Shown here piece by piece: positions 4,850 through 47,788 of a DNA stretch of 51,528 bases. A program made the position numbers and the translations under genes. A model generated the notes under the pieces. That model did no database searches. It worked only from the letters and a program-made list of their open reading frames with translations, and was not told where the DNA came from. Source of the stretch: Oehlia diaphana (taxonomy: Eukaryota; Glomeromycota; Glomeromycetes; Glomerales; Glomeraceae); NCBI GenBank assembly GCA_003833135.1, contig QZLH01000103.1, positions 57,049 through 108,576 on the forward strand, given 5' to 3'. The stretch's first letter is position 1; the number at the start of each line of letters is the position of its first letter.

Positions 4850-7123
4850 TCATCTAAGAACCAATTCAAGTTTATCTTCCAAATTAAATTTGAAAGTAGT
4901 ATTGCATCTTTGTCCAGTACGTTCATTTTTTGAAGTAGCAGTAATTTCCATATTTCCGAAAGTTAATCCAAATATTAGTCGTCTATCAAGACCTGAACCG
5001 GGAAGTTCAATACAAAGTTCTCCTAAAAGATTCACTCCAGGCTCATCACAGTATTCCGCATCATGCGCTAGAGTATAATATAATTTATGTTTTGCTTGTG
5101 TTTGATAACAATCAACTGGTGCAAAATATTTTGTAACTTCTCGATTAATATCCGTTTTAGTACCACGTTCAGCTAAACGATGAAATTTCTCAATAAGATC
5201 ACCATGCTTTCTTCTATTTTCTGGATCTCCTTCTTTCTAAATAAAGTTATGTTCGATTATTAAATGAAACATAAACGTTTTCAGACAAAAATTATTATAT
5301 TTAAAATAACCTACCCATTTAGTACAATAACTAATTCCATAAGTATATTTAAGAACTCTTGAAGAAATAATACATTCATCATTTTCTACATTATTCAAAT
5401 CATTCAATCTTATAGACAATCCATAAATTGCTGCTCCACGTGAAATTGCTGCTATAGGTCGAGTAGGTACTGAAATAATATCAACTTGACTACTAAACTT
5501 TTGTTTAATTCTTTTTTGTAAATATTTTGATTCACTAAATCCTCCAACTAAGAACATTGCAGAACAAGTTTCTTGAGCATTACTATCCAGTTGAACTTTT
5601 ATTAAGTGAAGAATCTTTTGGACAACAGGTTCAAATATTGATTTCATTGTTTCAAAATCAATTTCAATTACCCATTCATCATCATCTAAAGTTTTCCTGA
5701 TATCATCATCAATAACATGTTGTTCTAAGATTGGAGCCGCATCTCGAATATCCAATTCATATACAAAATCTGGATCATCTCCTGTAAAAGGAATTTTACC
5801 ATTTTCACAAAATTGTTGTACTAAATATTGCATTTGTTCATAGTGATTATCTCTGAGTAAATCCATAGGTTCATCTCCAATTGTTTTTCGTAAATGTTTA
5901 ATAAATTCGACATCAATAAAAGTACTTCCACAAAAATCTCCGGTTCTTTCGGTTACTTCGGCCAATTGGTCATTTTTTACCAATTTACGAGTTGTTAAAT
6001 CTACTGTACCACCACCACAGTCGACTATCATAAAATTGGCTATCAAATAAATATAATGAAAAATTAATTATAATTTTTTATTAATCAAAGTGGTCAGTAA
6101 AAAAAGAGCAACAAACATACTTCCTGCTTGTGTAAGATCATGTCCTTCAAGATTACTCATACAATATATCGCAGCCGCCTCGGCTAGATGTAAATGGTTT
6201 AAAAATTAAAAATTTATTAAAAAATATATACATAATTTATATATAAACTGTAAAGATTCTTACGCTCTGTAGTAAATTGTAAATTTTTTGAATATTTTTC
6301 TTTAATCAATTCCGCATCAAATGCACATATTCTCATAATTGCTTTCGCTTTATCAGAAAATTCTGCAGGAACAGTAATAATCAAAAGAACATTTTCAAAG
6401 TAATCAATGTTTGGCCAGCGTGTGTCGATAGTGTCTTTAATTACCTGGAATATTTTTTTTTTTTTAACATATACAACATAATAATAGAAGAATTATCGGT
6501 TATGTAGAATTTTTTAAAAAAGGGTTTGAACATTTTTAAAGTTCAAAAGATTAATAAATTTATTAAAATTATGTAAAAAAATTATACCTTTCCGATTTCT
6601 TTAAGATAATCGGTAATAGCTTTTTTGTAATCAACTGGTAATTTTGGTTTAAATTCATCTAATAGATCACCCAAATGTAATTTAAACAATTCAACGGGTC
6701 TATTATTTTCGTTATTTTTTTGTTTTCTTGTTCTACGACTTTTTTTTTTAGCTAAAGCTGGTGCACCCCAAAATTTTACATTCTTATATTCATTGTCATA
6801 TTGAAGAACTGTATTTGTTTTTAATTGACCTACTTCTCCGTTCCAACTATCATTTGAACATATATTGTCTTCTTCACTAACATGACAATATGCAAATCCA
6901 GTGTAAGTTGTTCCAAAGTCTAATCCAACTACAACGCGGATATTATTTCCTTCAAAACTTAATAATTTATTGTTTTTATCTTTCAAATCTTGAAAAATGT
7001 AAAAAAAAAAAAAATAATAATAATTTTTTTATAAGAATTAATGATATTATTAATAAAAATGGTTCATTAAATTTACCGTATTTTATCATCAATATACATA
7101 CTTCTGTTAATAGGACTACTCAT
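4850..7123 (-). CDS. Hsp70-like ATPase, HSPA12 type (gene A)
   Basis: Six exons: complement(7102..7123, 6588..6988, 6264..6444, 6121..6183, 5315..6039, 4850..5236); all junctions are GT-AG and in frame, giving 592 residues. The ATPase domain is shown by the phosphate-1 loop GLDFGTTYTGFAY (about residue 28), TVPAEFSDKAKAI, PEAAAIYCM, the phosphate-2 loop VDCGGGTVD and the adenosine-site motif LVGGFSESKYL. These variants are typical of the HSPA12 branch rather than canonical Hsp70. After residue 464 only about 128 residues follow, ending in a beta-rich segment (LPGSGLDRR...FGNMEITATSKN), so the classical substrate-binding domain and lid are reduced or absent. The product is probably a cytosolic ATP-binding chaperone-like or signalling protein; no client is inferable. 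The start is set by a 22-nt first exon preceded by a TATAAAT box. It is divergent from gene B. Confidence 0.88.
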
Positions 7124-7439: not shown

Positions 7440-9559
7440 ATGAGCGTTCAACAAGACGAAGTATGTGATGATAATCACTTGTTATTACCTTAAACTGTAT
7501 ATCTTTGTAACAAAAAATAATTTTTTTTTTTAAGGTGAGTGATATCCGCGTTGTGATTGGATTAGACTTTGGAACAACTTATTCTGGATTCGCTTATTGT
7601 CACGTTAGTGACGAAGACAATGTATGCTCAAATGTTTTGTGGTGTGGAGAAGCAGGTCAAGTAAAAACCAACACAGTTCTCCAATATGATAACGATTATA
7701 ATCAAGTAAAATTATGGGGAGCTCCAGCCCTAGCTAAAAAGCAAGGTCGTAAAAAAAGAAGAAGTATTATAGAAGAAAGTAAGCCCATAGAACTGTTCAA
7801 ATTACATTTAGGTGATTTATCAGAAAAACATAAACCAAAACTTCCAGTTTGTTATAAAAAGGCTATTACAGATTATCTTAGAGAAATCTGCAAGGTATAA
7901 TCTTAAAAAAAAAAACATTCATATGATTTATATTTGATTTTAATGATTTTTTGAAATGTTTAAAAATCATTTTTGGAAAAAAAAAAATCTAACATATTAT
8001 TTGTATACAAAATTTTTAAGGTAATTAAAGAAACCGTTGCAACAGCTTGGCCAATGGTTGATTACTTTGAGAATGTTCTTTTAGTTATTACAATTCCTGC
8101 AGAATTTTCTGAAACTGCAAAAGCAATTATGAGGACATGTGCGTTTGATGCAGGATTGATTAAAAAAAAATACTCCACAAATTTACAATTTACCACAGAA
8201 CGTAAGAACTTATATATATATATTCTTAAAAAAAACTTTCTAGTTTGAGGTTCTCATTTTCTCTCTTCTTTTTTTAAGCCGAAGCTGCTGCGATATATTG
8301 TATGAAAAAGAATCTTAACGAACAAGCACTTGCACAACCAGGAAGTAAGCGTTAAATCGAATATATTTTTGACTTAATATTTATGAATTAACTATGATAT
8401 ATTATTGTAGCAAACTTTATGATAGTTGATTGTGGGGGTGGTACAGTAGATGTAACAACCCGAAAATTATTAAACGAAGGACAATTGGGCGAGATAACCG
8501 AAAGAGCTGGTGATTTTTGTGGAAGTACTTATGTTGATGTTGAATTTATTAAATATTTACGAAGAATACTTGGAAATGAAGCTATGGATTTATTAGAGAA
8601 TAATGTTGGACAACGACAATATTTGATTCAACAATTTTGTAAAGAGTGTAAATTCCATTTTACAGGAGAGGATCGGGACTATTGTTATACTTTGGATATT
8701 GATGAAACGATTCCGATATTAAAAGATTATGTCACTAATAATCATGTTAGAGAAGGTTTAGAAGAGAATGATTGGACAATTGATATTGATTTTGCAACAG
8801 TGAAATCAATATTTGAACCTGTTATCCAACGAATCCTTAAATTGATAAAAGGTCAATTACGTAATTCTCAAGAATCTTGTTCTGCAATGTTCTTAGTTGG
8901 AGGTTTTAGTGAATCAAAATATTTACAAAAAAGAATTAAACAGGAATTTCAACATATAGTAAAACTTATTTCGGTTCCAATTTTACCCACGGCAGCAATT
9001 TCACGTGGAGCTACAATGTATGGATTGTCCATAAGTTCAAATTTAAATAATATAGAAAATAATAGGAGAATTATTTCTTCAAGGATACTTAAATATTCTT
9101 ATGGATGTGATATGTGGAAAAAATGGGTAAGTGATATTTATTTGTATATGAAAAAATTAAAATTTATTGTATTTTAATAAATATTTATTTCAGGAACATG
9201 GAGATCCAATTGACAGAAGAACTCCAGAGGGATTTATTGCTAAATTTAAACGTTTGGCTAAACGTGGTACTACAATGGGTATCGATCAAGAAGTTACGGT
9301 TAATCGTGTACCGATATTTGAGAATCAAGATAATATGATTACTAAAATATATTATACTCGAGAGTATGATGCGGAATACTGTGATGATCCTGGCGTGATG
9401 CCTTTAGGAGATCTTATTGTTGATCTTCCTGGAGAAGGTTTTAATAGACGTATATTATTTGGATTAACTTTTGGGAAAATGGAAATTATCGCTACTTCAA
9501 GGGATAAACAAACAGGACAAAGTTATAGAACTACTTTTAAATTTAATTTGGATGAATAA
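7440..9559 (+). CDS. Hsp70-like ATPase, HSPA12 type (gene B)
   Basis: Six exons join(7440..7460, 7535..7894, 8021..8201, 8279..8344, 8411..9126, 9194..9559), all GT-AG and phase-consistent, giving 569 residues. Exon 1 codes only seven residues (MSVQQDE). Signatures in order: IGLDFGTTYSGFAYCH, PVCYKKAITDYL, TIPAEFSETAKAI, PEAAAIYCM, MIVDCGGGTVDVT, LVGGFSESKYLQK and, at the C-terminus, LGDLIVDLPGEGF followed by FGKMEIIATSRDKQTGQS. The intron positions match genes A, C and G from exon 2 onward. The protein diverges from the other copies throughout, for example KPIELFKLHLGDLSEKH and NVGQRQYL, so it is an older paralogue of A and C. The role is presumably ATP-dependent chaperone-like or signalling; the peptide-binding lid is missing. 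No truncation or frameshift was seen. Confidence 0.88.
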
Positions 9560-18506: not shown

Positions 18507-20695
18507 ATGGATAGTCTTTTTCCTATTAACATATGTATGTATATTTGAGTGGAAATTTTATTATATCATTATTAATTCTGATGATAGAAATTATTTTTTA
18601 CATTTTAAGATGACAAATTTCTTAAACAAGACAATAAATTATTAGGATCCGATGATAATAATATCCGCGTTGTAGTTGGGTTAGACTTTGGAACAACTTA
18701 CTCTGGATTTGCATATTGTCATGTTAGCGATGAAGTCAATATATGTTCAAATGATGTTTGGAACGGCAACGTAGGTCAATTAAAAACAAATACGGTTCTT
18801 CAATATGACGATGAATATAATAATGTAAAACTTTGGGGTGCACCAGCTCTAGTTAAAAAGCAAGGTCGTAGTAGAACAAGAAGACAAAAAAATAACGAAA
18901 ATGACAAACCCGTTGAATTGTTTAAATTACATTTGGGCGATTTATTAGAAGAACTTAAACCAAAACTACCAGTTGATTACAAAAAAGCTATTACCGATTA
19001 TCTTAGAGAAATCGGAAAGGTATAATTTTTTGCATAATTTTAGCAATCTTTATACTTTGAATGTTCAAACCCTTTTCAAAACTTCTATCCGATAATTCTT
19101 CTATTATGTTGTATATTAAAAAATATTCAAGGTAATTAAAGAAATTATCAACACACGATGGCCAAACATTGATTACTTTGAAAACGTTCTTTTGATTATT
19201 ACCGTTCCTGCAGAATTTTCTGAAAAGGCGAAAGCAATTATGAGAATATGTGCATTTGATGCAGTATTGATTAAAGAAAAATATTCAACAAATTTACAAT
19301 TTACTACAGAACGTAAGAATCTTTACAGTTTGTATATAAATTATGTATATACCTTTTAAATTTTTAACTTAAAAAATTTATAACAAGCTGAGGCTGCTGC
19401 GATATATTGCATGAAAAGTCTTGAAGGACAAAATCTCGCACAACCAGGAAGTATGTTTATTAATTTGCTTTATTTATTAATAAATATCGACCAATTTGTT
19501 TATAAATAATTTATACAACAGCTAATTTCATGATAGTTGATTGTGGTGGCGGTACAGTAGATTTAACAACTCGTAAATTAGTAAGTCATAATCAATTAGG
19601 TGAAATAACTGAAAGATCTGGCGATTTTTGTGGAAGTACTTTTGTTGATGTCGAGTTTATTAAATATTTACGAAAAATACTTGGAGATGAACCTATGGAT
19701 TTGCTTAGAGACAATAACTATGGACAAATGCAATATTTGATACAACAATTTTGTAATGATGGTAAAATTCCTTTTACAGGGGATGATCCAGATTTTTTAT
19801 ATGAATTAGACATTCGAGAAACGGTTCCAATCTTAGAACAACAATATGTTATTGATGATGATATCAGGAAAACTTTGGATAATGATGAATGGATAATTGA
19901 AATTGATTTAGAAACTATGAAATCAATATTTGAACCTGTTGTCCAAAATATTCTTCAATTAATAAAAACTCAACTGGATAATGCACATGAAACTTGTTCT
20001 GCGATGTTTTTAGTTGGAGGATTTAGTGAATCAAAATATTTACAAAAGAAAATCAAACAAAAGTTTAGTAGTCAGGTTAATTTTATTTCGGTACCTACTC
20101 AACCTACGGCAGCAATTTCACGTGGAGCAGCAATATACGGATTGTCTATAAGATTAAATGATTTGAATAATATAGGAAATGATGACAATATGAAATGTGT
20201 TATTTCTTCAAGAGTTCTTAAATATACTTACGGAGTTAATGTTTTATTGGACTGGGTATGTTTTTTTCAATATAATTAAGTTTTATTTCGTAAACTTTAT
20301 TATTAAAAAATCAAATAAACTTTATTTAGAAAGAAGGAGATCCGATACATAGAAAAGTCTATGATGGCCTTATAGAAAAATTTAGTTGTTTAGCTACACG
20401 TGGTACTAAAATGGATATTAATCAAGAAATAACTAGCACTCGTGCACCATTTTATTCGGAACAAAAAGCAATGTTTTTTAAATTATATTATACAGAAGAG
20501 TATGATGGAACATATATTGATGATCCTGGTATGAAGCTTTTAGGAAATTTTACTATCGATTTGCCTGGTTCAGGAATGGATAGACGTATATTATTTGGAA
20601 TAACTTTTGGGAAAATGGAAATTATTGCTACTGCAAAGAACAAACAGACTGGTCAAAGTTATAAAACTACTTTTAATTTTAACTTTAATGATTAA
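18507..20695 (+). CDS. Hsp70-like ATPase, HSPA12 type (gene C)
   Basis: Six exons join(18507..18534, 18610..19019, 19132..19312, 19388..19450, 19522..20255, 20330..20695), all GT-AG and in frame, giving 593 residues. The first exon codes nine residues plus one base and joins to a second exon that reaches VVVGLDFGTTYSGFAY. Further motifs are ELFKLHLGDLLEELKPK, TVPAEFSEKAKAI, PEAAAIYCM, IVDCGGGTVDLTT, LVGGFSESKYLQKKI and ISRGAAIYGL. The C-terminal beta segment holds LGNFTIDLPGSGMDRR and FGKMEIIATAKNKQTGQS. It is closest to gene A in exons, introns, promoter and 3' flank, but in opposite orientation. The canopy- and lid-type substrate domain of classical Hsp70 is absent. No broken motif seen; likely functional. 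Confidence 0.88.
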
Positions 20696-23431: not shown

Positions 23432-25689
23432 TTATTCATATTTAAATAATACTTGGTATTTATCCTTGGTTTTTTGATTTTCGGCTGTTGCTAAAATTTC
23501 TATATTGTTAAAATTTAATGTGAATAAAATCTTTTGATCGTCGAAATCATCTAAAATTGGTATATCGATTTCCCAACTATTAAGTAATCTTACATCTTCT
23601 TCATCGCAATATTTAACGTCGGATTTAGATGTAATATACATATTAAATGAAACTTTCTTTTGAAATAGAGAAAACGGTTTGAAAGTTGTTGTATATTTAT
23701 CTTTATCTTGGCTCGTAAGCAGTGTTCCTTTCTCGACCAATGTATGGAAAACTTTTACCATACCATTCGGTAATTTTTTAGATAATGGATCATCTGGTTC
23801 CCACTTACGAACAATATCAGTTCCTTAAAAAAATAAACACATTAGATAACATTACATAAATTAAAAATTAAAATAATAATTTATTAATAAGGAATATTAG
23901 TAGATTACCATATGTCCATTTTAAAATACGATTTGTGATCACATGTTCTTTAATACCAAATTGAACAGCTGATAATAATAAAAAAAAAAATTAGAACAGA
24001 TTTAATAATAGAATTTAAAAGAAATATTTTTTATAATTACCTCCTTTAACTACTGCTAACATGGGATGAATTGGAACTGAAATACTTTTTACTTGATGAT
24101 TAAATTCTTGTTTAATTCTCTTCTGTAAATATTTTGATTCACTGAAGCCACCGACCAATATAATTGCAGAACAATCACTGTTTAAATTTAGTTGGCCTCG
24201 GATTAATTGAATAATTCTTGCAATGATAGGATCAAACATATTTTTAACCTCTTCAGATGTGAGTTCAATAACCCATTCTAATTCTTCCATTGTTTCAAGT
24301 TCACTACCTTTGCAATATTGCTTTAACGTTGGACAAAGTTCTAAACAACAAAAAAAATGTGGATTTTAATAGCTTTGTACGTTCATTTTTAAGTATATGT
24401 ATAATTTTACCTTCAATATCTACTTCAGATATTTCTGCATCATCATCTCCTGTAAAAGGTAATTTAATTCTTCTACAGAACTCTTGGATTAAATATTGCA
24501 TTTGACGATAATGATTGTTCTTTAAATTTTCAATTGTGGACTTTCCAACTTTTCTTTCAAGAAACTTAATAAATTCTTGATCAACATAACTAGAACCACA
24601 AAAGTCTCCCATACGCTCTGTTATTTCACCGAGTGTATAATCAACTAAAAGTTGTCGTGTTGTTAAATCTACTGTTCCACCACCACAATCAACGATCATG
24701 AATGAATCTACATTTGCGAAATAACTGATTAGAACTTGTTTGAACATCGGAGATTGATGATCAAGTCAAAGAATACATTACCTCCTGGTTTTATTCCATT
24801 TCCACTTAAAGAATTCATACAATGAATTGCAGCAGCTTCGGCTTCGTATTAACAAAATTTTAACAAAAAATTTAGACCAAGATAGAATATAATGAAACAT
24901 GAATATATATTTTGAAAGTTTCTTACGTTCCGTAATAAATTTTAAATTTCTACTATTTCTTGCATCCGTTAATTTAGCTTCAAAAGCGCATTGCCGTAGA
25001 ATTGCTATTGCATTATTATCAAATTCAGCGGGTATCTATAACCATAAAAGTTTAATTTAAATTTTTAGATTGTAATTTAAAAATAAATATACCTACCGTT
25101 AAAATAATAATAACTTGATCATGAAAGTCTAAATATTTATATTTATCGGACAAGTAATTTTTCATCATTTTACCAATCTCGTGTAAATAATCCGTGATAA
25201 CTTTCTTATAATCTAACCCTTCTGGTAAGTATGGTTTTTCTTCAATATTTCCTAAATGTAATTTAAATAATTCCACTGATTTCGAGTCATCTGCTGCATT
25301 ACTTTTTCTTCGAATTGTTCGTTCTGCCAATGCTGGAATTCCCCATGATATTACATTAAAATCCTTATCATATTTAAGTACAGTAGGCGTTTCAAGATTT
25401 CCTCCATCATAATCTTGAACATATATTTCCTCGGGACTGTCTTTGTGTACGCATGCAAAGCCCTATTTATGGGCACAAGTAGTTAGATTTCTTTTTTATT
25501 TAGTAAGTATTTATTTTAAATTAACATACCGAATAAGTACATCCAAAATCTAATACGAAATTAATTGTTTTTTATTTTTTAATAAAATTTATATGTGAGC
25601 TTTTTTGAAATTTTATTGAAAAAATGAACATTAAAATGTTATTAAATACCAATAGCAGCTACTATACGAATATCATTTGTTGCAGCCAT
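23432..25689 (-). CDS. Divergent HSPA12-like Hsp70 with extra introns (gene D)
   Basis: Nine exons: complement(25650..25689, 25530..25549, 25097..25462, 24927..25035, 24782..24841, 24411..24707, 24041..24340, 23909..23968, 23432..23823), all GT-AG and in frame, giving 547 residues. Motifs: AAIDFGCTYSGFAC, WGIPALAERT, VELFKLHLGNIEEKPYLP, IPAEFDNNAIAILRQCAFEA, PEAAAIHCM, IVDCGGGTVDLTT, ILVGGFSESKYLQKRIKQEF and, in place of ISRGA, VVKGAVQFG. The C-terminal beta segment (LNFNNIEILATAENQKTKD) is kept. The phosphate-1 loop has Cys where the other copies have the first Thr of DFGTT, which may weaken ATP handling. The intron after GKV in the paralogues is missing; instead one interrupts ILT/IPAEF, and new introns split the first exon and the ATPase core. 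One exon is only 20 nt. A separate, older subfamily. Confidence 0.85.
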
Positions 25690-26018
25690 TTTTAATAGAT
25701 GGCATGAAAATTTATCAGTAATGATTTATCCCCGCTTATTCGATTTTTTAAAAGTATAAATAAATTTAAATTTATTGTGTAACTGTCATTGCCTGTATGT
25801 AAGCGGATGTTTAATTCCTTTTGATTGAGAAAATGCATGATTTTTATAGTCCTTCAATGTTCATCATTTCTTAATTAAAATTTGTGATGACAAAAAATAA
25901 GATGAAAATTTCCCGGAAAATTTTCCGTAAACATTGTACTCCTATAGTCCGCTATATATGATGGCCATTGTATCCCTTTAAAAGAAAATTCTTGAGTCAA
26001 AATTTATTCCAAACCAAT
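25690..26018. promoter_or_regulatory. Bidirectional promoter between Hsp70 genes D and E
   Basis: 329 bp between divergent starts, nearly the size of the A/B spacer. Toward gene E there is a TATATAT box at about 25952-25958, some 60 bp before the chosen ATG at 26019. Upstream lies the perfect 12-bp palindrome GGAAAATTTTCC inside CCCGGAAAATTTTCCG (about 25913-25928). Its GAA and TTC blocks are not spaced as in a standard heat-shock element. Confidence 0.45.
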
Positions 26019-28057
26019 ATGGAAGATACTAATTTTCTAGAAAATAATATTCGCGTTGTGGTTGGATTAGATTTTGGAACAACTTACTCTGGATTTGCAT
26101 ATTGTCATGTTTGCAATGAAAGAAATGTTTGTTCAAATGATAATTGGCACGGGGAAGTAGGTCAATTAAAAACCAATACAGTTCTTCAGTATGATGATAC
26201 ATACAATGTAAAATTATGGGGTGCCCCAGCTATGGCCAAAAAGCCCAATCGTCGAAACAGAGGACAAAACAATGAAAGAAATAGACCTGTTGAATTGTTC
26301 AAATTATATTTGGAAGATTTATCGGACAAATTAAAACCAAATCTTCCAGTTGAATATAAAAAAGCCATTACCGACTATCTTAGGGAAATCGGCAAGGTAT
26401 ATTTAAATAGTTAAATAAATAAAGATTGTCAATGTTTCAAAAAATCGATTTTTTAAAAGTTCAATTTTTCTATTATATTATTGCATATGTAAATGAATTT
26501 TCAAGGTAATCAAAGATACTGTCGGATTACGATGGCCAAAGATCGAATATTTCGAGAATGTCCTTCTGATTCTCACCGTTCCTGCAGAATTTTCCGAAAA
26601 GTCAAAAGCGATCATGAGAATATGTGCATTTGATGCAGAATTAATTAAAGAAGCATGCTCAACAAATTTGCAATTTACTACAGAACGTAAGAATATTCAA
26701 AATTTCTATAATATTCTTGGATTTCTAAATTAGGATTTTTTTTTTTTAGCTGAAGCAGCTGCTGTATATTGCATGAAAAATCTTGAAAAACAGAATTTTG
26801 CACAACCAGGAAGTATGTTGTTCTTTTTATAATTTTGATTATAAACATCATAATTTATTAATTTACATATAAAATTTTTTACAAAAGATAATTTTATGAT
26901 AGTTGACTGTGGTGGTGGTACAGTAGACTTAACAACTCATAAATTTATAAACAACGAACAATTGAGCGAAATAACTGAAAGAGCAGGCGATTGTTGTGGA
27001 AGTACTTGTATCGATGCTGAATTTGTTAAATATTTACGAAAGACACTTGGAGATGAACCTATGGACTTGCTTAGAGATAATAACTATGATCAAATGCAAT
27101 ATTTGATACAACAGTTTTGTAAATATGGTAAAATTTCTTTTACAGGAGATGATCCAGATTTTTTATATGAGTTGGATATTCGAGATACGATTCCGATCTT
27201 AGAACAGCAATATATTGTTGATGATGATAGCAGAGAAACTTTAGAAAAAAATGAATGGGTAATCGAAATTGATTTTGAAACTATGAAATCGATATTTGAG
27301 CCTGTTGTCCGAAAAATTCTTAAGCTGATAAAAGTTCAACTAGATAATGCTCAAGAAACTTGTTCTGCAATGTTTTTAGTTGGAGGTTTTAGTGAATCAA
27401 AATATTTACAAAAAAGAATTAAACAAGAATTTAGTCATCGAATAAATGATATTTCAGTACCTATTCAACCTATGGCAGCAATTTCACGTGGAGCAGTAAT
27501 TTACGGATTATCTATAAGATTAAATGATTTGAATAATGTAGGAAATAATGAAAATATGAAATGCGTTATTTCTTCAAGAGTTCTTAAATATACTTATGGA
27601 ATTAAAACCGCGACTAAATGGGCAAGTTCTATTTTCATTTACAATATTTATGTCAACTACTTTTTAAAAAAACTTTATATTTGTTTAGGAAAGGGAAGAT
27701 CCTTTACATAGAAAAACTCAAGATGGATTTATTGAAAAATTTCAATGTTTAGTTAGACGTGGCACTAAAATAAATATTAATCAGGAAATTAAAAGGTCTC
27801 GTGTACCGATTCATTCCGAGCAAAAAGAAATGATTCATTGTTTATACTATACTAAAGAGTATGAAGCAGAATATTGCGATGATCCTGGCATGGAGCTTTT
27901 AGGAAAACTTCATATTGATCTTCCTGGTTCAGGTCTCGATAGACCTGTGTTATTTGGAATAACTTTTGGAAATATGGAAATTACTGTTACTTCAAAAAAT
28001 GAACTTACTGGTCAAAGTTATAAAGCTATTTTCAAGTTTGACTTAGATATAAATTAA
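26019..28057 (+). CDS. Hsp70-like ATPase with a GC-AG intron (gene E)
   Basis: Five exons join(26019..26396, 26506..26686, 26750..26812, 26888..27621, 27689..28057), giving 574 residues. The start is MEDTNFLENN directly joined to IRVVVGLDFGTTYSGFAY, so the short separate first exon of A, B, C and G is absent; an in-frame ATG at 25968 is less likely because it precedes the expected leader. Further motifs: ELFKLYLEDLSDKLKPN, TVPAEFSEKSKAI, PEAAAVYCM, IVDCGGGTVDLTT, LVGGFSESKYLQKRI and LGKLHIDLPGSGLDR. The last intron begins GCAAGT after the conserved Lys-Trp codon pair, where all other copies have GTAAGT, GTATG or GTAGG. Reading through it meets stops, so it is a probable GC-AG intron. Two changes are unusual: GDCCGSTCID for GDFCGSTFVD, and DDDSRET for DDDIRKT. 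Confidence 0.87.
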
Positions 28058-29001: not shown

Positions 29002-31143
29002 TTATCGACTAACTTGACAGACAATGTATGCACGTGAATAGACTTTTTGTCCTTGTTTACCATAATTTGAAACAAATAGAGGAAAGGAACACAATTCAAC
29101 TAATAAATTGTTATTTTCATCTATAGCATATCTTTCTTCCATCAAATTTGGATCTATTTTATGATTATATGGAAACCATTTATATTCAACAGCTGGTTCC
29201 TGAACTTTTAAGCGAAAAAAGCATATTCTAATTAATTCCTGTACTAGATTAGTTGCCATATCATCATGCTTTTTACTCTTTTTTTGATCTGTAATTGAGC
29301 GAAACTTATTAATTGATTCATTTAACTTATTTTTTATATTTAATATAACAGGATGTTCTTTATGTCCATCTTTAATAATATTCGCAAATCCAAGACTGCC
29401 TAGAAGTCCATACAATTGCTGGCGCACTTTAATAGGCCTAGCTGCAATTATGCCATTGGTTCCATCACGTTCTGTTGAAAATACACTTAATAATTTAAGA
29501 AGATCATTAGTTTGTTTATAAATACTGCTTTCTAAGTCATCTGTTTGTTTATTACTATTACTTTTGTTGTTATTTGTTTGTTTATCAATATTGCTTTGAC
29601 TGACATCAGTTTTTTTGCCTTGGTTATCATCAACTTGATTACTTTGGCTATCATTGGTATTTTTGCTTTGGCTGTCATCAACTTGATTGCTTTGGCTGTT
29701 ATTGGTATTTTTGATTTTGTTGTCATCAACTTGATTGCTTTGACTGTCATCAGTATTTTTGCTTTGGCTGTCATCAATTTGATTGCTTTGGCTGTCATCA
29801 GTATTTTTGCTTTGGCTGTCATCAGTATTTTTGCTTTGGCTATTATCAACTTGATTGCTTTGATTTTCAACTACTTGATTGCTTTTGCTGTCATCAACTT
29901 GATTGCTTTGGTTGTCATCAACTTGATTGCTTTGACTGTCATTGGTATTTTTGATTTTGCTGTCATCAACTTGATTGCTTTGACTGTCATCAGTATTTTT
30001 GCTTTGGCTGTCATCAATTTGATTGCTTTGGCTGTCATCAACTTGATTACTTTGGCTATCATTGGTATTTTTGCTTTGGCTGTCATCAACTTGATTGCTT
30101 TGGCTGTCATTAGTATTTTTGCTTTGGCTATTATCAACTTGATTGCTTTGATTTTCAACTACTTGATTGCTTTTGCTGTCATCAATACTTTTGCTTTTGC
30201 TGTCATCAACTTGATTGCTTTGGTTGTCATCAACTTGATTGCTTTGGCTGTTATCAGTATTTTTGCTTTGGCTGTCATCAACTTGATTGCTTTGGCTATA
30301 ATCAGTATTTTTGCTTTGGCTGTCATCAATTTGATTGCTTTGACTATTATCAGTTTTTTTGCCTTGGTTATCATCAACTTGATTGCTTTGGCTGTCATTG
30401 GTATTTTTTCTTTGGCTGTCATCAACTTGATTGCTTTGGTTGTCATCGGTATTTTTTCTTTGGCTGTCATCAACTTGATTGCTTTGGCTATCATCAGTAT
30501 TTTTGCTTTGGCTGTCATCAATTTGATTGCTTTGACTGTTATCAGATTGTCTTTCAACTGGTTTGCTTTGATTGTCATTGGTTTGTTCATCAATAATACT
30601 TTTGCTGTCATTGATTTTTTTGCTTTGAGTCTGTTTATCAATATTGCCTTTTAATAATGGATCATCATATTTTAAAAAATATTTATTTGCACTCTTAATG
30701 ACTTCTTCAAATACATGACGTTGTAAAACAGCTTTTGCTAGTTGTACTTCGTTTTCTTTGGGTTTTTCTTTAGATTTTACTTGTGCAGAACACCCATAAA
30801 GTCGCAATAATTTGTTTACTTCTTCAAAATTTATTTTTACTTTGGGTCTCAGATTTCCGATGTAATCTACAATCATCTTTTGTAAATTCTCAATATCTTT
30901 GGCAAAATGGGTGCTGTGATTTGTATCATTATCATTTAAAGAAAAATTTGTTTCTTTACCAATGTAATTTTGCCATCTACTGTTTTCATCATTTAACTTT
31001 TTATTTTGTTTCCGAAGAGATTCAATTTCTTTGTCTAACTTTTTATTTTGTTTCCGAAGAGATTCAATTTCTTCGTCTTTAGAAGTTATTTCCGTAAGAA
31101 AGCCATCTACTATCTCGTTACTCACTTGATTTTGATCTGACAT
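29002..31143 (-). CDS. Coiled-coil protein with long 8-residue tandem repeat (gene F)
   Basis: One uninterrupted frame of 713 residues. Residues 20-52 form a short coiled coil that contains a tandem 14-residue duplication (EIESLRKQNKKL twice). Residues about 80-160 form a mixed helical region (MIVDYIGNLRPKVKI, NKLLRLYGCSA). Residues about 200-520 are some 40 copies of an 8-residue unit alternating between DDSQSNQV and DDSQSKNT, very hydrophilic and presumably disordered. Residues about 548-713 form a second folded part (FSTERDGTNGIIAARPIKV, LVQELIRICFFRLK, YKWFPYNHKI, SRAYIVCQVSR). I do not recognise either folded region; a lineage-specific domain is likely. No signal peptide, membrane helix or catalytic motif is seen. 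Both flanks of the repeat remain in one frame, which supports selection to keep the ORF. Function unknown. Confidence 0.75.
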   Translation of the reverse strand: MSDQNQVSNEIVDGFLTEITSKDEEIESLRKQNKKLDKEIESLRKQNKKLNDENSRWQNYIGKETNFSLNDNDTNHSTHFAKDIENLQKMIVDYIGNLRPKVKINFEEVNKLLRLYGCSAQVKSKEKPKENEVQLAKAVLQRHVFEEVIKSANKYFLKYDDPLLKGNIDKQTQSKKINDSKSIIDEQTNDNQSKPVERQSDNSQSNQIDDSQSKNTDDSQSNQVDDSQRKNTDDNQSNQVDDSQRKNTNDSQSNQVDDNQGKKTDNSQSNQIDDSQSKNTDYSQSNQVDDSQSKNTDNSQSNQVDDNQSNQVDDSKSKSIDDSKSNQVVENQSNQVDNSQSKNTNDSQSNQVDDSQSKNTNDSQSNQVDDSQSNQIDDSQSKNTDDSQSNQVDDSKIKNTNDSQSNQVDDNQSNQVDDSKSNQVVENQSNQVDNSQSKNTDDSQSKNTDDSQSNQIDDSQSKNTDDSQSNQVDDNKIKNTNNSQSNQVDDSQSKNTNDSQSNQVDDNQGKKTDVSQSNIDKQTNNNKSNSNKQTDDLESSIYKQTNDLLKLLSVFSTERDGTNGIIAARPIKVRQQLYGLLGSLGFANIIKDGHKEHPVILNIKNKLNESINKFRSITDQKKSKKHDDMATNLVQELIRICFFRLKVQEPAVEYKWFPYNHKIDPNLMEERYAIDENNNLLVELCSFPLFVSNYGKQGQKVYSRAYIVCQVSR
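29590..30560 (-). repeat. 24-nt coding minisatellite within gene F
   Basis: The period is 24 nt (8 codons), with a 48-nt alternation and a higher-order duplication of 288 bp. The rare variant coding VVENQSNQVDNSQ occurs at 29862 and again at 30150, exactly 12 units apart. The lack of stops in the unit creates spurious open frames on both strands. Confidence 0.9.
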
Positions 31144-32496
31144 AACTTTTTTTTTTTAACGAGCGTTGCTCTTAATAAATACGTTGGAGATATTCAAAAA
31201 CTATAAGTTTTACAAAATTAAGAAACAGCAGGTAATAACATTTTCCCGTATCCTTCGTATCCTTATATATGCAAGCTGTGTAACATAAGTAAATTAGGTT
31301 GTACTTCGGTTAAAATATTGGTGGATTATTATTCATTGATTCGATATAATCACATTAATTTGAGAAGTTTCACAACATTATTCTTTGTTATGTTTCCTAA
31401 TTAGTATTCATTATTCTTTTTTTTATTTCCGAATTTAGTTTCATTATCCATTATCTATAAAAGATAATATGATTAATTGACTCTTGCCCTACAAGAAGAC
31501 CTTCCGTGATTTGTTCGTTGACTCATTAATTCACACAGAGGGAAATGAATAAATAATAATACATTTCCTAACCTAGACTATTGTAGATGATAGCTGTTTG
31601 CACATGTAAATTTTGAGACATTTTTATGAAAATTGCCGATCCGCATGATCTTGGTTCCTTTGAAATTTTTACTGAAAATTCTTTTAGATCTTTTGTCCAA
31701 ATAATTAAAATATTTTTTATAAATTTAAAATTTTACAAATCCGCCTTAGAAATGTAAAAAATTTGTAAAAAACATATGAAATTTTTTTCCCCAAAAAAAC
31801 TATGGGATTAGATTTTTTTAATAAAGTATTAGACATCAAATATTACAAAGCTTGAAAATTTTGAGCGAGTACTTAAATATTATATTTCTTCATAAATTTA
31901 TGCCACTTTTTTTTTACCTCATAAGAATATCTTAAATTTTCCATACATATATATATTCTTTAAAAAGATTATTAAATTAAAAAAATGTAGAAAATTTTTT
32001 ATTTAAGTTCTAATAATGTCAAAACAGCAAAACTTCGCAAGTTTTCTTTTTTCGGATTTTTTTTTTTTTGGAAATTTCAATTTTTTATAAATAATCAACA
32101 AAAATCACATTATAATATACTATGCCCCTAATTATATTCTGAATATATAAATTGTGATTATTAAATAAAAATGGGTTTTAATTAATTTATATATATGCGG
32201 ATTAGCAATTAAATGTTTTAATTATGCCTCTGTTTTAAAAACTCAGTTGATTCATAATAAGAATTTATTTCTTTCATTCAGCAATTCAGCATTTATACCT
32301 TAATTATAGTCTAGATTGATAATTTAAGGCTTGAATTATTTATATTAATAGTGAATCAATTGATAGCTGAATAATGAATATCAGTTAACATAATTAATTT
32401 TTAAATTTCTATATTTTTGTTCATTTTTATTTTAAAAAAAATTCTTTTGTACTTAATGTTTTTAAATTTACAATCAACATGCATTTCTGCGAAACT
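31144..32496. other. Intergenic, AT-rich
   Basis: Upstream region of gene F. Nothing recognisable apart from a T run directly before the start codon (31148-31159) and long A/T tracts. No repeats or genes supported. Confidence 0.5.
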
Positions 32497-40770: not shown

Positions 40771-41133
40771 CTATTTTAGGCTTATTAGATAGACCTTAAT
40801 TTTCTCTTTCAAATGAATATAAATTCATTTATGTAGCTTACATTTACAGGTATTTAATAAATTTTTTTATATCAGACTTTATCAAACTTATAAAATTTTA
40901 TATTAATAATAAAATTGATGATTTCTGAATATCACTAGTTGAAAAAGAAATATTCGGCCTTAATACAATTTGGCTTAAATTCAACTAGAATTAATAAAAT
41001 TTGACTTCAATTAGTAAAGATCTATGATTAGACATATATTCAAGTTAAATTATGTTAATCAAACATTACGCATTATGCATTATGCATATTAAAATAAAAG
41101 TTTAAAAAAGGATCATCCTTTTTTAAACTTTTT

Positions 41134-41300
41134 TAATTTTCTTTCTTTTCCCATCCTTTTCCTTCCTTCGTTTCCCTTTCCCTTCATCCCAGTTTCTCTT
41201 CTTCCCTTTTCCCTTCCTTTGTTCTCCTTTCCCTTCCTTCCCTTTTCCCTTCTTTACCCTTTCTTCTTTTCTTTCTTCTTTTCTTTCTTCACTTATCTTT
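41134..41300 (+). promoter_or_regulatory. Long polypyrimidine tract upstream of mini-exon array
   Basis: About 165 bp of almost pure C/T on the plus strand (CCCTTCC, TTTCTTC blocks) end about 40 bp before an ATG at 41342. Such tracts can form triplex DNA and occur in fungal promoters. The position suggests a promoter for the following array, but this is inference. Confidence 0.4.
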
Positions 41301-41341
41301 TTCGAAGGTATACATATACCTTCAAATTTTTACTTTTTTTA

Positions 41342-42588
41342 ATGAAATATTTTACTACTGTTTTCATTTTTTTCTTTTTTAGATTCAAGACACCCATTTA
41401 AAAGGCTTAGGTAGGCTTCCAAAGAATGGAAAAACCAAGTTTTGTAAATTAGTATGAAACTTGGTTTATTTTTTTTTTATTTTTTAATTTAATATGAACG
41501 GTTACTAACTGTTCTTTTTTTACTTTTTTTTTTAGATTCGGCCGTTCAGATGGACTTCTGAAATATAGAAATTCCAAAGATTCGTAAGTATGAATTCTTT
41601 GAAGTTTTTTTTTATATTTTTAATATGAATGGTTACTAACCATTTTTTTTAGATTCAGCCATTTGGGTGGGCTTCCAAAGTATAAAAACTCCAAAGATTC
41701 GTAAATATAAATTCTTTAGAGTTTTTTTATATTTTTAATATGAATGATTACTAACCGTTCTTTTTTTTACTTTTTTTTAAATTCAGCCATTCAGATGGGC
41801 TTCTGAAGAATGGAAAAACCAAGTTTCGTAAGTATGAAATTTGGTTTATTTTTTTTGTTAATTTAATATAAACGGTTACTAACCGTTTTTTTTACTTTTT
41901 TTATAGATTCAGCCGTTCAGGTGTCTTCTGAAGAATGGAAAAACTAAGTTTCATAAGTATGAAATTTGGATTATTTTTTATTTTTTTTATCTTTTTTAAT
42001 ATTATGAATGGTGTTCTAACTGTCTTTTCTTTTTTTTTACAGGTTTAGGTGGATTTCAGACAAATGGAGAAACCAAGATTCGTAATATAAATCTTAGTTT
42101 TTGGGATTTTTTTTATTATTTTAGAATAGTTTACTAACCATTCTTTTCTTTTTTTTTATAGGTTCAGGTGGATTTCCATCTTTCTGAGGAATGAAAAAAA
42201 CTAAAGATTCGTATGAATTTTTGTTTTTTTATTTTGTTTGATATTAATGACGGTTACTAATAACTGTTCTTTTTTATTTTTAGGTTTGAACAGGCTTCCG
42301 AATTCTAAAAAACAGAAAACTAAGATTCATAAGTATTCTGAATCTTAGTTTTTTTTTTCTTGTTTTTTTTTTAATTTATTAATGAATGGTTACTAATAAC
42401 CATTCTTTCTAATTTTTTTAGATTCAGGTGATCTTTCGAATTCTAAAGAACGGAAAAGAACCAAGATTTGTAAGTATATACAAAACTTAGTTTTTATTAT
42501 TATTATTATTTATTATTATGAATGGTTATTAACCGTTCTTATTCTTTTTTTTATAGGTTTGGGTAGAACTCCGGACAATTATATTTGA
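41342..42588 (+). CDS. Tandem mini-exon gene or relic, possible secreted repeat protein
   Basis: Ten mini-exons: 41383-41443, 41536-41583, 41653-41700, 41781-41827, 41907-41952, 42043-42081, 42162-42210, 42284-42328, 42422-42469 and 42557-42588. Introns of 69-93 nt carry GTAAGT-type donors, TACTAAC branch points and T-rich tracts to AG. ATG at 41342 opens a hydrophobic stretch MKYFTTVFIFFFF, signal-peptide-like, but it is one base out of frame with mini-exon 1. Mini-exons share a hydrophilic motif: GRLPKNGKTKF, GGFQTNGETKI, RLPNSKKQKTKI, DLSNSKERKRTKI, GRTPDNYI then stop. Mini-exons 1, 6, 8, 9 and 10 join in one frame (phase 1). Others carry stops, a lost acceptor (AA before the fourth) or AT donors (fifth, eighth). 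It resembles the repeat-per-exon SP7-like effectors of Rhizophagus as I remember them. It may be a functional, alternatively spliced gene or a decaying copy. Confidence 0.45.
41383..42588 (+). repeat. Ten-unit tandem array, 117-153 bp period
   Basis: Unit starts (acceptor AG) lie at 41381, 41534, 41651, 41779, 41905, 42041, 42160, 42282, 42420 and 42555. Each unit has a mini-exon, a hairpin around the donor (for example CCAAGTTTC/GAAATTTGG), a hairpin around the branch point (AACGGTT-ACT-AACCGTT or AATGGTT-ACT-AACCATT) and a T-rich tract. Sequence between units has diverged, but the two hairpins persist in most. Confidence 0.85.
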
Positions 42589-42660
42589 TCTGGTATGTAT
42601 AAATTAGAGTAAATTTTAGAAAATTTTTTTGAAAGGTAGTATGTAAAAAATGGGTTTTTT
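42589..42660 (+). repeat. Direct repeat, left copy
   Basis: GATCTGGTATGTATAAATT, then GAGTAAATTTTAGAAAATTTTTT and GTAGTATGT blocks. Matches 44608-44680 in the same orientation at most positions. The copies flank about 2 kb. Confidence 0.6.
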
Positions 42661-45426: not shown

Positions 45427-47788
45427 TTAGTTATCGAAGTCAATTTTAAACGTAGTTCTATAACTTTGACCAGTTTGCATATTCTTCGCAGTAGCAATAA
45501 TTTCCATTTTTCCAAAAGTTATTCCAAGCTTAACATTTCTATCAGTACCTGAACCAGGAAGATCAGTGTGAAACTTCCCTAAAAGCTCCATACCAGGATC
45601 ATTCCGATATTCTCCATCATATTCTTTAGTGTAATATATTTCATTTTCCAAATATCTTTGATATGAATATAACGGACTACAATATGTCTCGATTTCTTGA
45701 TCAATATCTATTTTAGTACCACGTCTAGCTAAACAATGAAATTTTTCAATATGGCCACCAGAGGCTTTTCTATGTTCCGGATCTCCTTCTTTCTAAATAA
45801 AGTTACGTTTGATTTTTAAATGAAACATTATCAGGCAAAAATTATTATATTTAAAATAACCTACCCATTTAGTATGATAGATAATTCCATAAGTATATTT
45901 AAGAACTCTTGAAGAAATAACACATTTCATATTACCGTCATTCCCTATATTATTCAAATCATTTAGTTTTATCGATAATCCGTAAATTGCTGCTCCACGC
46001 GAAATTGCTGCCATAGGCTGAGTAGGTACTGAAATATTATTTACTCGATGACTAAATTCTTGTTTAATTTTTTTTTGTAAATATTTTGATTCACTAAAAC
46101 CTCCAACTAAGAACATTGCAGAACAAGTTTCTTGAGCATTATCTAGTTGTGCTTTTATCAAGTGGAGAATCCTCTGGACAACAGGCTCGAATATTGATTT
46201 CATAATTTCAAAGTCAATGTCAATTACCCATTCGACTTCTTCTAAAGTTTTCCTGATATCATCATCTGTAACGTATTGTTTTAAGATTGGAACTGCCTCC
46301 TGAATATCCAATTCATACGAAAAGTCTGGATCATCCCCTGAAAAAGGAATTTTGCAATTTCTACAAAATTGCTGTATCAAATATTGCATTTGACCATAAT
46401 TATTATCTCTAAGCAAATCCATAGGTACATCTCCGAGTATTTTTCGTAAATATTTAATGAATTCAGCATCAATGAAAGTACTTCCACAAAAATCTCCGGT
46501 TCTTTCAGTTATTTCGCCCAATTGCTTATCATTTATTAATTTACGAGTTGTTAAATCTACTGTACCACCACCGCAGTCAACTATCATAAAATTAGCTGTT
46601 GTTCAAAATTATAAATAAACGAAGTTAATTATATTGTCTTTTTTTTATTGAAGAGGGAAGTTTATTTCAAACATACTTCCTGCCCGCGCAAGATTCTGTC
46701 CTTCAAGATTTTCCATGCAATATACCGCAGCAGCTTCAGCTGAAGATAGTTAAATATCTAAATTTAGAATCTGAAGAAATGATTATGATATAAAATTGTG
46801 AAAATTCTTACGTTCTGTAGTAAATTGTAAATTTGTTGAACATTCTTCTTTGATCAATCCCGCATTAAATGCACATACTCTCATAATTGCTTTTGACTTA
46901 TCAGAAAATTCTGCAGGAACGGTAATAACTAAAAGAATATTCTCAAAGTAATCAATCAATGGCCAGCGTGTTTTAATAGTATCTTTAATTACCTTGAAAA
47001 AATTATATGTGCGTACGTAAAAACATCATCTTTAAATAATAAAGAATTAGTATTATAAGAAATATTGTACCTTGCCAATTTCCCTAAGGTAGTCAGTAAT
47101 AGCCTTTTTGTAATCAACTGGAAGTTTAGGTTTAACTTCATCCGATAAATCACCTAAATGTAATTTGAACAATTCAACGGGTATACTACCATCACTATTA
47201 TTTTGCTTTCTCACTCTACGACTTTTCCTTTTAGCTAGAGCTGGTGCTCCCCAACATTTTACGTTATTATATTCAGCGTCGTATTGAAGAACTGTATTAG
47301 TTTTTAAATAACCTGTTTCACCGTGCCAAATATCATTTGAACACAGATTTCTTTCTTCATTAACATGACAATAAGCAAATCCAGAGTAGGTTGTTCCAAA
47401 GTCTAATCCAACCACAACACGGATATTACTTTCTTCAGGGCTCAATTGGTTATTATTTTCTTCAAGACTATTATTTTCTTCAGGGCTATTATTTTCTTCA
47501 GTGCTCAATTTGTCATTATTTTCTTCAGAGCCTAATCTATTGTAAACTTCTCCTTCGCTATCTTCCTTGTCGCTATCTTCCTCAGAGTTTAGTTGGTCGT
47601 TGTCTTTCTTAGAGATTGGTAATTCGTCATTTTCTTCCTCAGAACCTAGTTGGTCGATATCTTTCCTAAAGATTATTCGTTCTAAATTTTCTAAATAATT
47701 GTAAAAAGAAAAATTTAACTTCTTTAATTATCAGAATCAATGGTATTAAAAAATGTCTATTTAACGTCATATACCTACTTCGACTCAT
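45427..47788 (-). CDS. HSPA12-like Hsp70 with acidic N-terminal extension (gene G)
   Basis: Six exons: complement(47779..47788, 47071..47690, 46813..46992 adjusted to 46812..46992, 46677..46739, 45865..46595, 45427..45792), giving 656 residues, all GT-AG and in frame. The first exon is only 10 nt. About 90 acidic residues then precede IRVVVGLDFGTTYSGFAY, rich in Glu, Asp and Asn with recurring EENN and GSEEEN-like blocks (NSPEENNSLEENNNQLSPEE). ATPase motifs follow: ELFKLHLGDLSDEVKPK, TVPAEFSDKSKAI, PEAAAVYCM, IVDCGGGTVDLTT and LVGGFSESKYLQKKI. The C-terminus has LGKFHTDLPGSGTDR and FGKMEIIATAKNMQTGQS. The last intron is nearly identical to that of gene A. A TATAAAT box lies about 45 bp upstream (forward about 47831-47837). 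The 10-nt exon with a GTAGGT donor is the least certain part. Confidence 0.85.
47384..47690 (-). other. Acidic low-complexity extension of gene G
   Basis: Coding stretch for roughly residues 4-91. The repeated GAAGAAAAT and TCTGAGGAA codon blocks suggest repeat-slippage growth. Genes A, B, C, D and E have only 7-26 residues before the ATPase fold. Confidence 0.7.

Follow-up and report, generated by a model that had tools for sequence, protein, structure and literature searches.

The window analyzed here, a stretch of 51,528 nucleotides from contig QZLH01000103.1 of Oehlia diaphana, contains on its forward strand a tandem array in which mini-exons alternate with short introns (41383 to 42588), and the question that this locus raises is whether the array encodes a modular protein or has some other basis. 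An earlier note on this DNA had proposed that exon amplification gave rise to a modular protein with variable repeat number or alternative splicing. The array was found where the note had placed it. It comprises nine units of exon plus intron and a tenth exon that is truncated, and it carries donors, branch sites, T-rich tracts, and acceptor AGs; a unit profile detected nine units in the window at a spacing of 117 to 139 bp. The donors, branch sites, and acceptors of these repeated exon-plus-intron units all lie in one orientation, which supports the amplification proposal as a tandem duplication of exon-intron units with splice-type signals.

Read from the sequence, mini-exon 1 (61 nt, 41383 to 41443) ends at a GTAAAT donor at 41444. 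It is followed on the same strand by mini-exons 2 (48 nt, 41536 to 41583), 3 (48 nt, 41653 to 41700), 4 (47 nt by homology, 41781 to 41827), 5 (46 nt, 41907 to 41952), 6 (39 nt, 42043 to 42081), 7 (49 nt, 42162 to 42210), 8 (45 nt, 42284 to 42328), and 9 (48 nt, 42422 to 42469). Mini-exon 10 is cut short (42557 to about 42577, an end placed by eye), and similarity to the related loci L009, L010, and L011 stops inside it. The acceptor of mini-exon 4 is damaged to AA (41779 to 41780), so that the automatic parser took the next AG (41786) and started the exon at 41787. Introns 2 to 9 begin with GTAAGT (three), GTAAAT, GTAATA, GTATGA, or ATAAGT (two), the last being the damaged donor of mini-exons 5 and 8, in which the first G is absent. 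Exact TACTAAC branch sites occur in introns 1 to 4 and 6, the same ones in which they had been reported, and the other branch sites are TTCTAAC (unit 5), TACTAAT (units 7 and 8), and TATTAAC (unit 9). An intron of the same design, which the note had not listed, precedes the array on the + strand (75 nt, 41308 to 41382, with donor GTATAC at 41308 and AG at 41381 to 41382). Triads of donor, branch site, and T tract with AG numbered seven on the + strand of the window, compared to a mean of 0.85 and a maximum of 4 in 100 dinucleotide shuffles. The − strand contained none, yet the A-rich composition of that strand depresses its count.

The remainder of the window contains six genes that are related to each other, have short introns, and lie in both orientations (4850 to 7028, 23432 to 25462, and 45427 to 47727 on the − strand; 7511 to 9559, 18609 to 20695, and 25962 to 28057 on the + strand). 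Their motifs suggest that they are Hsp70-like ATPase genes; only one of three exons scanned matched Pfam HSP70, just under the cut-off. A 717-residue open frame (29002 to 31155, − strand) contains a long tandem repeat, DDSQSNQV / DDSQSKNT, that overlies a 24/48-bp DNA repeat at 29590 to 30545, and its only match in Pfam was a subthreshold one to ZapB. No tRNA was found in the window. Rfam gave no window match above threshold and four subthreshold matches in 40920 to 42620, so the array does not correspond to a structured RNA known to Rfam.

The array is not confined to this locus. A search of the organism's own genome (108.8 Mb, 1,672 contigs) found at least 94 array matches on at least 39 contigs, a lower bound since 40 of the 107 first-look candidates were scored; the window-type head gave 13 candidates, all of which were scored. 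Arrays from 30 of the 39 matching contigs were used for unit analysis. The unit profile was held to one strand because the units are palindromic and two-strand models drift to both strands, and it gave 394 unit hits in the 30 sources. Each source contained 7 to 31 unit hits, some having several arrays, and repeat number is thus variable, as the earlier note had suggested. Unit types recur across several loci, and in the 7 of 30 sources whose units were printed their order was identical by eye, which indicates that arrays were copied whole. In one unit type GGTTACGAACC stands in place of GTAAGT, so that some units are without a good donor. At locus L013 (contig C398), several arrays follow one another together with two copies of the tail, giving 31 unit hits in 8.9 kb. 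L026, L034, and L037 form a third array group, marked by a conserved head of about 560 bp that is peculiar to it and by a short tail (80 to 145 bp).

Comparison of flanks demonstrated that the copies have a common head and tail with sharp ends bounded by terminal inverted repeats (TIRs). Two TIR families carry arrays, and the window array is part of a dispersed copy of the CACTAG family that starts at 40933. Its left TIR (CACTAGTTGAAAAAGAAATATTCGG, 40933 to 40960, + strand) marks a boundary from which L010, L012, and L028 are conserved inwards and unrelated outwards. The CACTAG start is present at 40933 and in L012 and has decayed in L010 and L028. The tails of L010, L011, and L012 end in a matching GACTAGT, and the opposite end of L011 and L012 carries GACTAGTG. 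Target duplications of 3 bp were seen by eye in two window-type copies, TAT in L012 and TAA in L010. CACTA ends and 3-bp target duplications define the CACTA/CMC group. The window copy has lost its 3′ part beyond about 42577 and has no downstream flank match, so its right end is absent. Between the left TIR and the array lies a CT-rich leader (41130 to 41298, + strand) that contains tandem repeats, is conserved in relatives, and is probably a promoter or first-exon region; its translation resembles the N-terminal part of two Rhizophagus irregularis gene models, P0060 and P0110. The note had reasoned that finding the same array many times in the genome as untranscribed satellite would count against it. 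The many copies do exist, but they are short arrays of distinct unit types within TIR elements, and hence are carried by a transposon-like element and do not form a satellite.

Elements of the second family end in CATCGGGAAATTTTTTAGGG...CCCGATG (CATCGGGAAATTTTTTAGG) and have AATAAA, a polyA-like end, in the tail. The TIR pattern of this family had 41 matches in the genome with up to 3 mismatches, compared to none for a control. Among the 13 elements for which both ends were available, to which the count was restricted, 2-bp target duplications were exact in 8 (P of about 3e−6 under assumed base frequencies). The target-site pairs of L014, L038, and L054 differ by one transition, and those of L039 and C15 mismatch. 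L038 is inserted inside a window-type array, and its flanks, when joined, align through the junction to L030 over 279 bp at 87% identity, so that L030 serves as an empty-site match for this insertion. The genome contains Transposase_21 (28 matches) and Plavaka (24 matches) domains, none of them inside an element with known ends, a set that covers part of the family, or otherwise linked to the ends of the array elements. One Transposase_21 match (L056, C1458:9468-9632) lies about 0.9 kb past the L034 array, beside a run of N; it could be a partner transposase or could be there by chance. A giant gene that had seemed to lie behind the C1458 array, a 3,217-amino-acid open frame beside this match, is in fact the run of N.

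Public gene models provided good, if indirect, evidence that the predicted junctions are used. With the joined mini-exons of L011 as the query, 14 public proteins were found, 13 from R. irregularis and 1 from R. diaphanus. These models contain 69 predicted-junction peptides, with at least one in each model, compared to a mean of 2.0 in shuffled sequences, by a pattern composed after the proteins had been seen. Removal of the head intron in the window gives SK joined to IQDTHLKGLGRLPKNGKTKF, which matches P0060 and P0110 across the junction. R. irregularis models of related arrays join their mini-exons at junctions that correspond to the exon edges given in the earlier note. Its suggestion of alternative splicing is likewise borne out at the level of gene models, some of which list isoforms that include or skip mini-exons; the isoform proteins of RIR_jg29739 (t3, t4, and t6) and of RIR_jg8231 (t2 and t3) differ by mini-exon-sized blocks. 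A profile search extended the set to 190 public proteins at an E value of ≤0.001, taken collectively rather than checked individually, and all 120 of the 120 listed were named Rhizophagus.

The RIR_jg names are presumably those of the RIR17 gene set. According to the available text of its description, RIR17 was built using RNA-Seq intron hints (PMC6123716), and the RIR_jg names are absent from that text. A Rhizophagus annotation was made with Illumina and Nanopore RNA, as stated in the available part of its report (PMC10234402), and the OCT59 names probably stem from that annotation. We infer from the models that arrays are transcribed and spliced in vivo, and the models may be partly ab initio.

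Our preferred reading, to which we assign a probability of roughly 0.6, is that a non-autonomous, CACTA-like TIR DNA transposon of a Rhizophagus-type fungus carries the array as its cargo, with transcripts that would be spliced and a reading frame that is unconserved. The strongest competitor, which we consider unlikely, is a real protein family with hydrophilic repeats, rotating frames, and splice variants, whose genes were spread on transposon ends. The 190 gene models, with their Rhizophagus names among all those listed, and the isoforms with cassette mini-exons are as expected for such a family. Moreover, the frame that is open in the window across the head exon and exon 1 is also the one used there by R. 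irregularis models, and the R. diaphanus model P0005 ends like the last-exon readings of L009 and L010. The reading frame itself argues the other way. Exon lengths fall evenly into the three classes modulo 3 (96, 104, and 108 of 308), and the 71 differences in length found within unit types include 55 indels of 1 to 2 nt and 14 that are multiples of 3. A precomputed Pfam domain is attached to only 2 of the 120 models listed. Across the 14 gene models the core of the exons is read in each of the three frames (motif counts of 13, 10, and 64), and 3 of the 14 use all three.

Open frames were examined in spliced form in the 27 of 30 sources with at least seven parsed exons. Their median length was 58 codons, compared to a shuffle mean of 70.5, and an open run of 152 codons in L011 (P = 0.005), which favors a protein, was the sole clear excess over shuffles among the 27 arrays. 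Of 406 stop triplets in 213 exons, 195 occur at positions that in relatives are CG or, often, CA. A frame test that discounted such CpG-type stops covered the 20 arrays with a run of at least six exons; the best frame contains 22 stops versus 27.6 expected, and in-frame stops are therefore not clearly depleted. Nine of the 20 arrays become stop-free after discounting, which is unexpected (P of about 0.05 each) only for L011 and L035. Exon lengths, indels, and stops together leave the frame unconserved across copies and the earlier note's modular protein, read in one frame, unsupported. On these sequence comparisons a conserved protein is unlikely, and if spliced RNA lacks a conserved frame, the open frames behind the hypothetical proteins that databases list are probably incidental.

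Most donors and branch sites in the window sit in hairpins, a feature that the earlier note had missed. The end of an exon pairs with the start of the following intron to form a donor hairpin, for example, CCAAGTTTCGTAAGTATGAAATTTGG, and in most introns the branch site is at or beside the tip of a second hairpin, for example, GAATGGTTACTAATAACCATTC. All the window hairpins are on the + strand. The head donor is enclosed by TTTTCGAAGGTATACATATACCTTCAAA (41299 to 41326, from the sequence with pairing by eye). Hairpin A of donor 1 spans 41421 to 41478 and is 77% paired, with arms at 41421 to 41442 and 41457 to 41478, and hairpins of the same type occur at donors 41584, 41701, 41828, 41953, 42211, 42329, and 42470. 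The first hairpin B (GAACGGTTACTAACTGTTC, 41496 to 41514) has the branch site at or beside its tip, and further ones are found at 41634, 41749, 41877, 42132, 42255, 42391, and 42527. Pairing is weak at donor 42082 (z = −0.97) and branch site 42014 (z = −0.46). Across the family, folding z averaged −3.84 for hairpin A (79% of 308 exons below −1.5) and −3.09 for hairpin B (74% of 360 units below −1.5), and the branch A was unpaired in 180 of 360 folds. In the ordinary introns of the Hsp70-like genes of the window, inspected by eye and uncounted, no similar hairpins and no TACTAAC were noticed.

Such strong hairpins, with splice motifs at palindrome centers and with some loops that have no donor, could mean that the array is a palindrome array acting at the DNA or RNA level, either a small-RNA hairpin cluster or the product of a repeat-forming process, in which the splice motifs would be by-products of GGTTACTAACC and CGTAAGTACG. 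The abundance of hairpin small-RNA loci in R. irregularis fits this explanation, since one survey, in its available text, reports more confirmed loci of this kind than in Arabidopsis or Drosophila (PMC9757828). We nevertheless regard it as improbable. The centers are not sense-neutral: the five commonest non-self-complementary hairpin B loops show YTAA in the sense of the T-rich strand 224 times and in reverse twice, in copies that are related and not independent. In addition, a T tract leads to the first AG at a set distance of 19 to 28 nt from the branch A in 335 of 358 window-type family units (360 of 382 aligned units were parsed). Palindromes alone would yield neither the loop sense nor the AG spacing. 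The use of the junctions by gene models also argues against this explanation, as do two arrays of a third type, L053 and L054, that keep the donor at the stem base (GTAAGTTTCGCAAC-type versus GTTGCGAAACTTTAC-type arm) rather than near the hairpin tip.

Ongoing selection for arm pairing was not seen at the CpG sites of hairpin arms. The CpG states of paired arms are near-independent in present copies, with values of 0.593 versus 0.592 shuffled for hairpin A and 0.606 versus 0.575 for hairpin B, the latter reached in 100 of 2,000 shuffles. Current maintenance of the hairpins is therefore unsupported, and present copies resemble neutrally decaying ones. Between unit types, the arms covary (GATT/AATC in 131, GTTT/AAAC in 83, and mixed in 12 of 226), which may reflect a few old events.

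The layout recurs with other sequences. Arrays at L038, L039, L053, L054, L055, and the first part of L016 have different exons and stems in the same arrangement, as in the donor hairpin TTAAAGGTAAAACCTTTGAA and the branch-site hairpin ATGAACGTTACTAAACGTTCAT of L038. Triads numbered 7 in L038, 2 in L039, 11 in L053, 11 in L054, 8 in L055, and 6 in the first part of L016, and with the 7 of the window the total for the seven arrays is 52, compared to shuffle means of 0.4 to 1.6 per array; taken alone, L039 is within its shuffle range (maximum of 3). The reverse strands of all seven arrays gave two triads, but these strands are A-rich, which makes their count an unfair control and the shuffles the fair one. 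A search with the L038-type array found at least 123 matches, with 40 of 91 candidates scored. The automatic exon parser miscalls some intron parts as exons in L038 and L053 to L055, and for these arrays it serves as a rough check only. Window-type and L038-type exons have a common purine-rich core, GAAGAATGG, which appears to resemble the exonic splicing enhancers of animals.

The copies are decaying. Within unit types, differences at CpG columns (436 of 1,418 cells) are about threefold more frequent than elsewhere (760 of 8,109 cells), and 54 of 308 donors read ATAAGT, as expected from loss of the G of TTCGTAAGT. The window copy is itself a decaying copy whose 3′ part is gone. This CpG-site decay, the lost donor G, and the truncation would also suit a relic of a captured intron-rich transposase or host gene, now dead and with splicing that has no present role, but that account is very unlikely given that no open frame of 150 codons or more lies inside any element at 35 loci (the four loci with frames of this length have them in the flanks) and that a layout common to several sequence types is not what a single captured gene predicts.

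If the array is transposon cargo, as we prefer, the element would consist of a CT-rich leader and, behind it, a chain of some 7 to 20 mini-exons, mostly 36 to 57 nt long, separated by spliceosomal introns of mostly 65 to 100 nt. In most introns one hairpin would hold the donor, and a second would have the branch site at or beside its tip, 19 to 28 nt before the AG. The chain would have grown by tandem duplication of exon-plus-intron units and then been copied as a block to many loci by transposition, with a transposase presumably acting in trans. Transcription would start in the CT-rich leader, and the polyA-like end would close the transcript. The short introns would be removed with the help of the hairpins, which may display the donor and branch site and bring the two closer together, and mini-exons may be included or skipped in the spliced transcripts. 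Structured introns may have been favored because they allow efficient removal of very short introns or yield host-like transcripts, and we speculate that host-like spliced transcripts escape silencing or are better expressed. A bolder proposal, which we hold tentatively and think rather doubtful, is that these elements form a transposon class with a self-expanding chain of structured introns, in which hairpins let short introns go regardless of exon content, many RNA and frame-rotating peptide variants result, and several stem types have converged on or kept the same layout in one genus.

Classed as a transposon, the element belongs to the non-autonomous TIR elements and in the window family is CACTA-like, and as an array it is a case of tandem exon duplication. 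It resembles CACTA/CMC elements (En/Spm and Plavaka) in the CACTAG start of the window-family TIR and perhaps in the 3-bp duplication that was seen by eye in two copies, and the CMC and Plavaka families are present in Rhizophagus according to the part of the literature available here. It differs from them in carrying an intron-dense mini-exon cargo without a transposase, and the second array TIR family (CATCGGGAAATTTTTTAGG) has 2-bp duplications. Introners, as described in the available text, are also mobile DNA bearing splice signals (PMC9860276), but the array elements move whole chains of exons and introns with their own leader and polyA-like end. SP7-like effectors of the Glomeromycotina likewise have a variable number of short hydrophilic repeats in Rhizophagus. 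They are set apart by their description, the available text of which gives one conserved intron before the first repeat and names none per repeat (PMC11333574), and we reject this identity. The closest relatives are GLOIN_2v1779851, RIR_jg29739, RIR_jg21983, OCT59_016805, and similar models, which have the same kind of exons and the same junctions but are filed as protein-coding genes for hypothetical proteins; for these proteins, the available text of the genome papers is silent on transposon termini and on hairpin introns. A literature search, mainly of open-access sources, found no description of mini-exon arrays in Rhizophagus. We know of no described element that combines a TIR transposon with a tandem exon array and hairpin-framed introns.

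If this reading is correct, up to about two hundred unnamed Rhizophagus protein entries may be pieces of transposon cargo, and their annotation would need to say so. With 394 unit hits in the 30 sources, the arrays form a naturally occurring collection of related short introns, hundreds in number, whose donors, branch sites, tracts, and hairpins are damaged to differing degrees; it offers a test bed for how the fungal spliceosome finds very short introns. They would also represent a DNA transposon that multiplies introns and mini-exons together, which bears on the origin of intron-rich genes.
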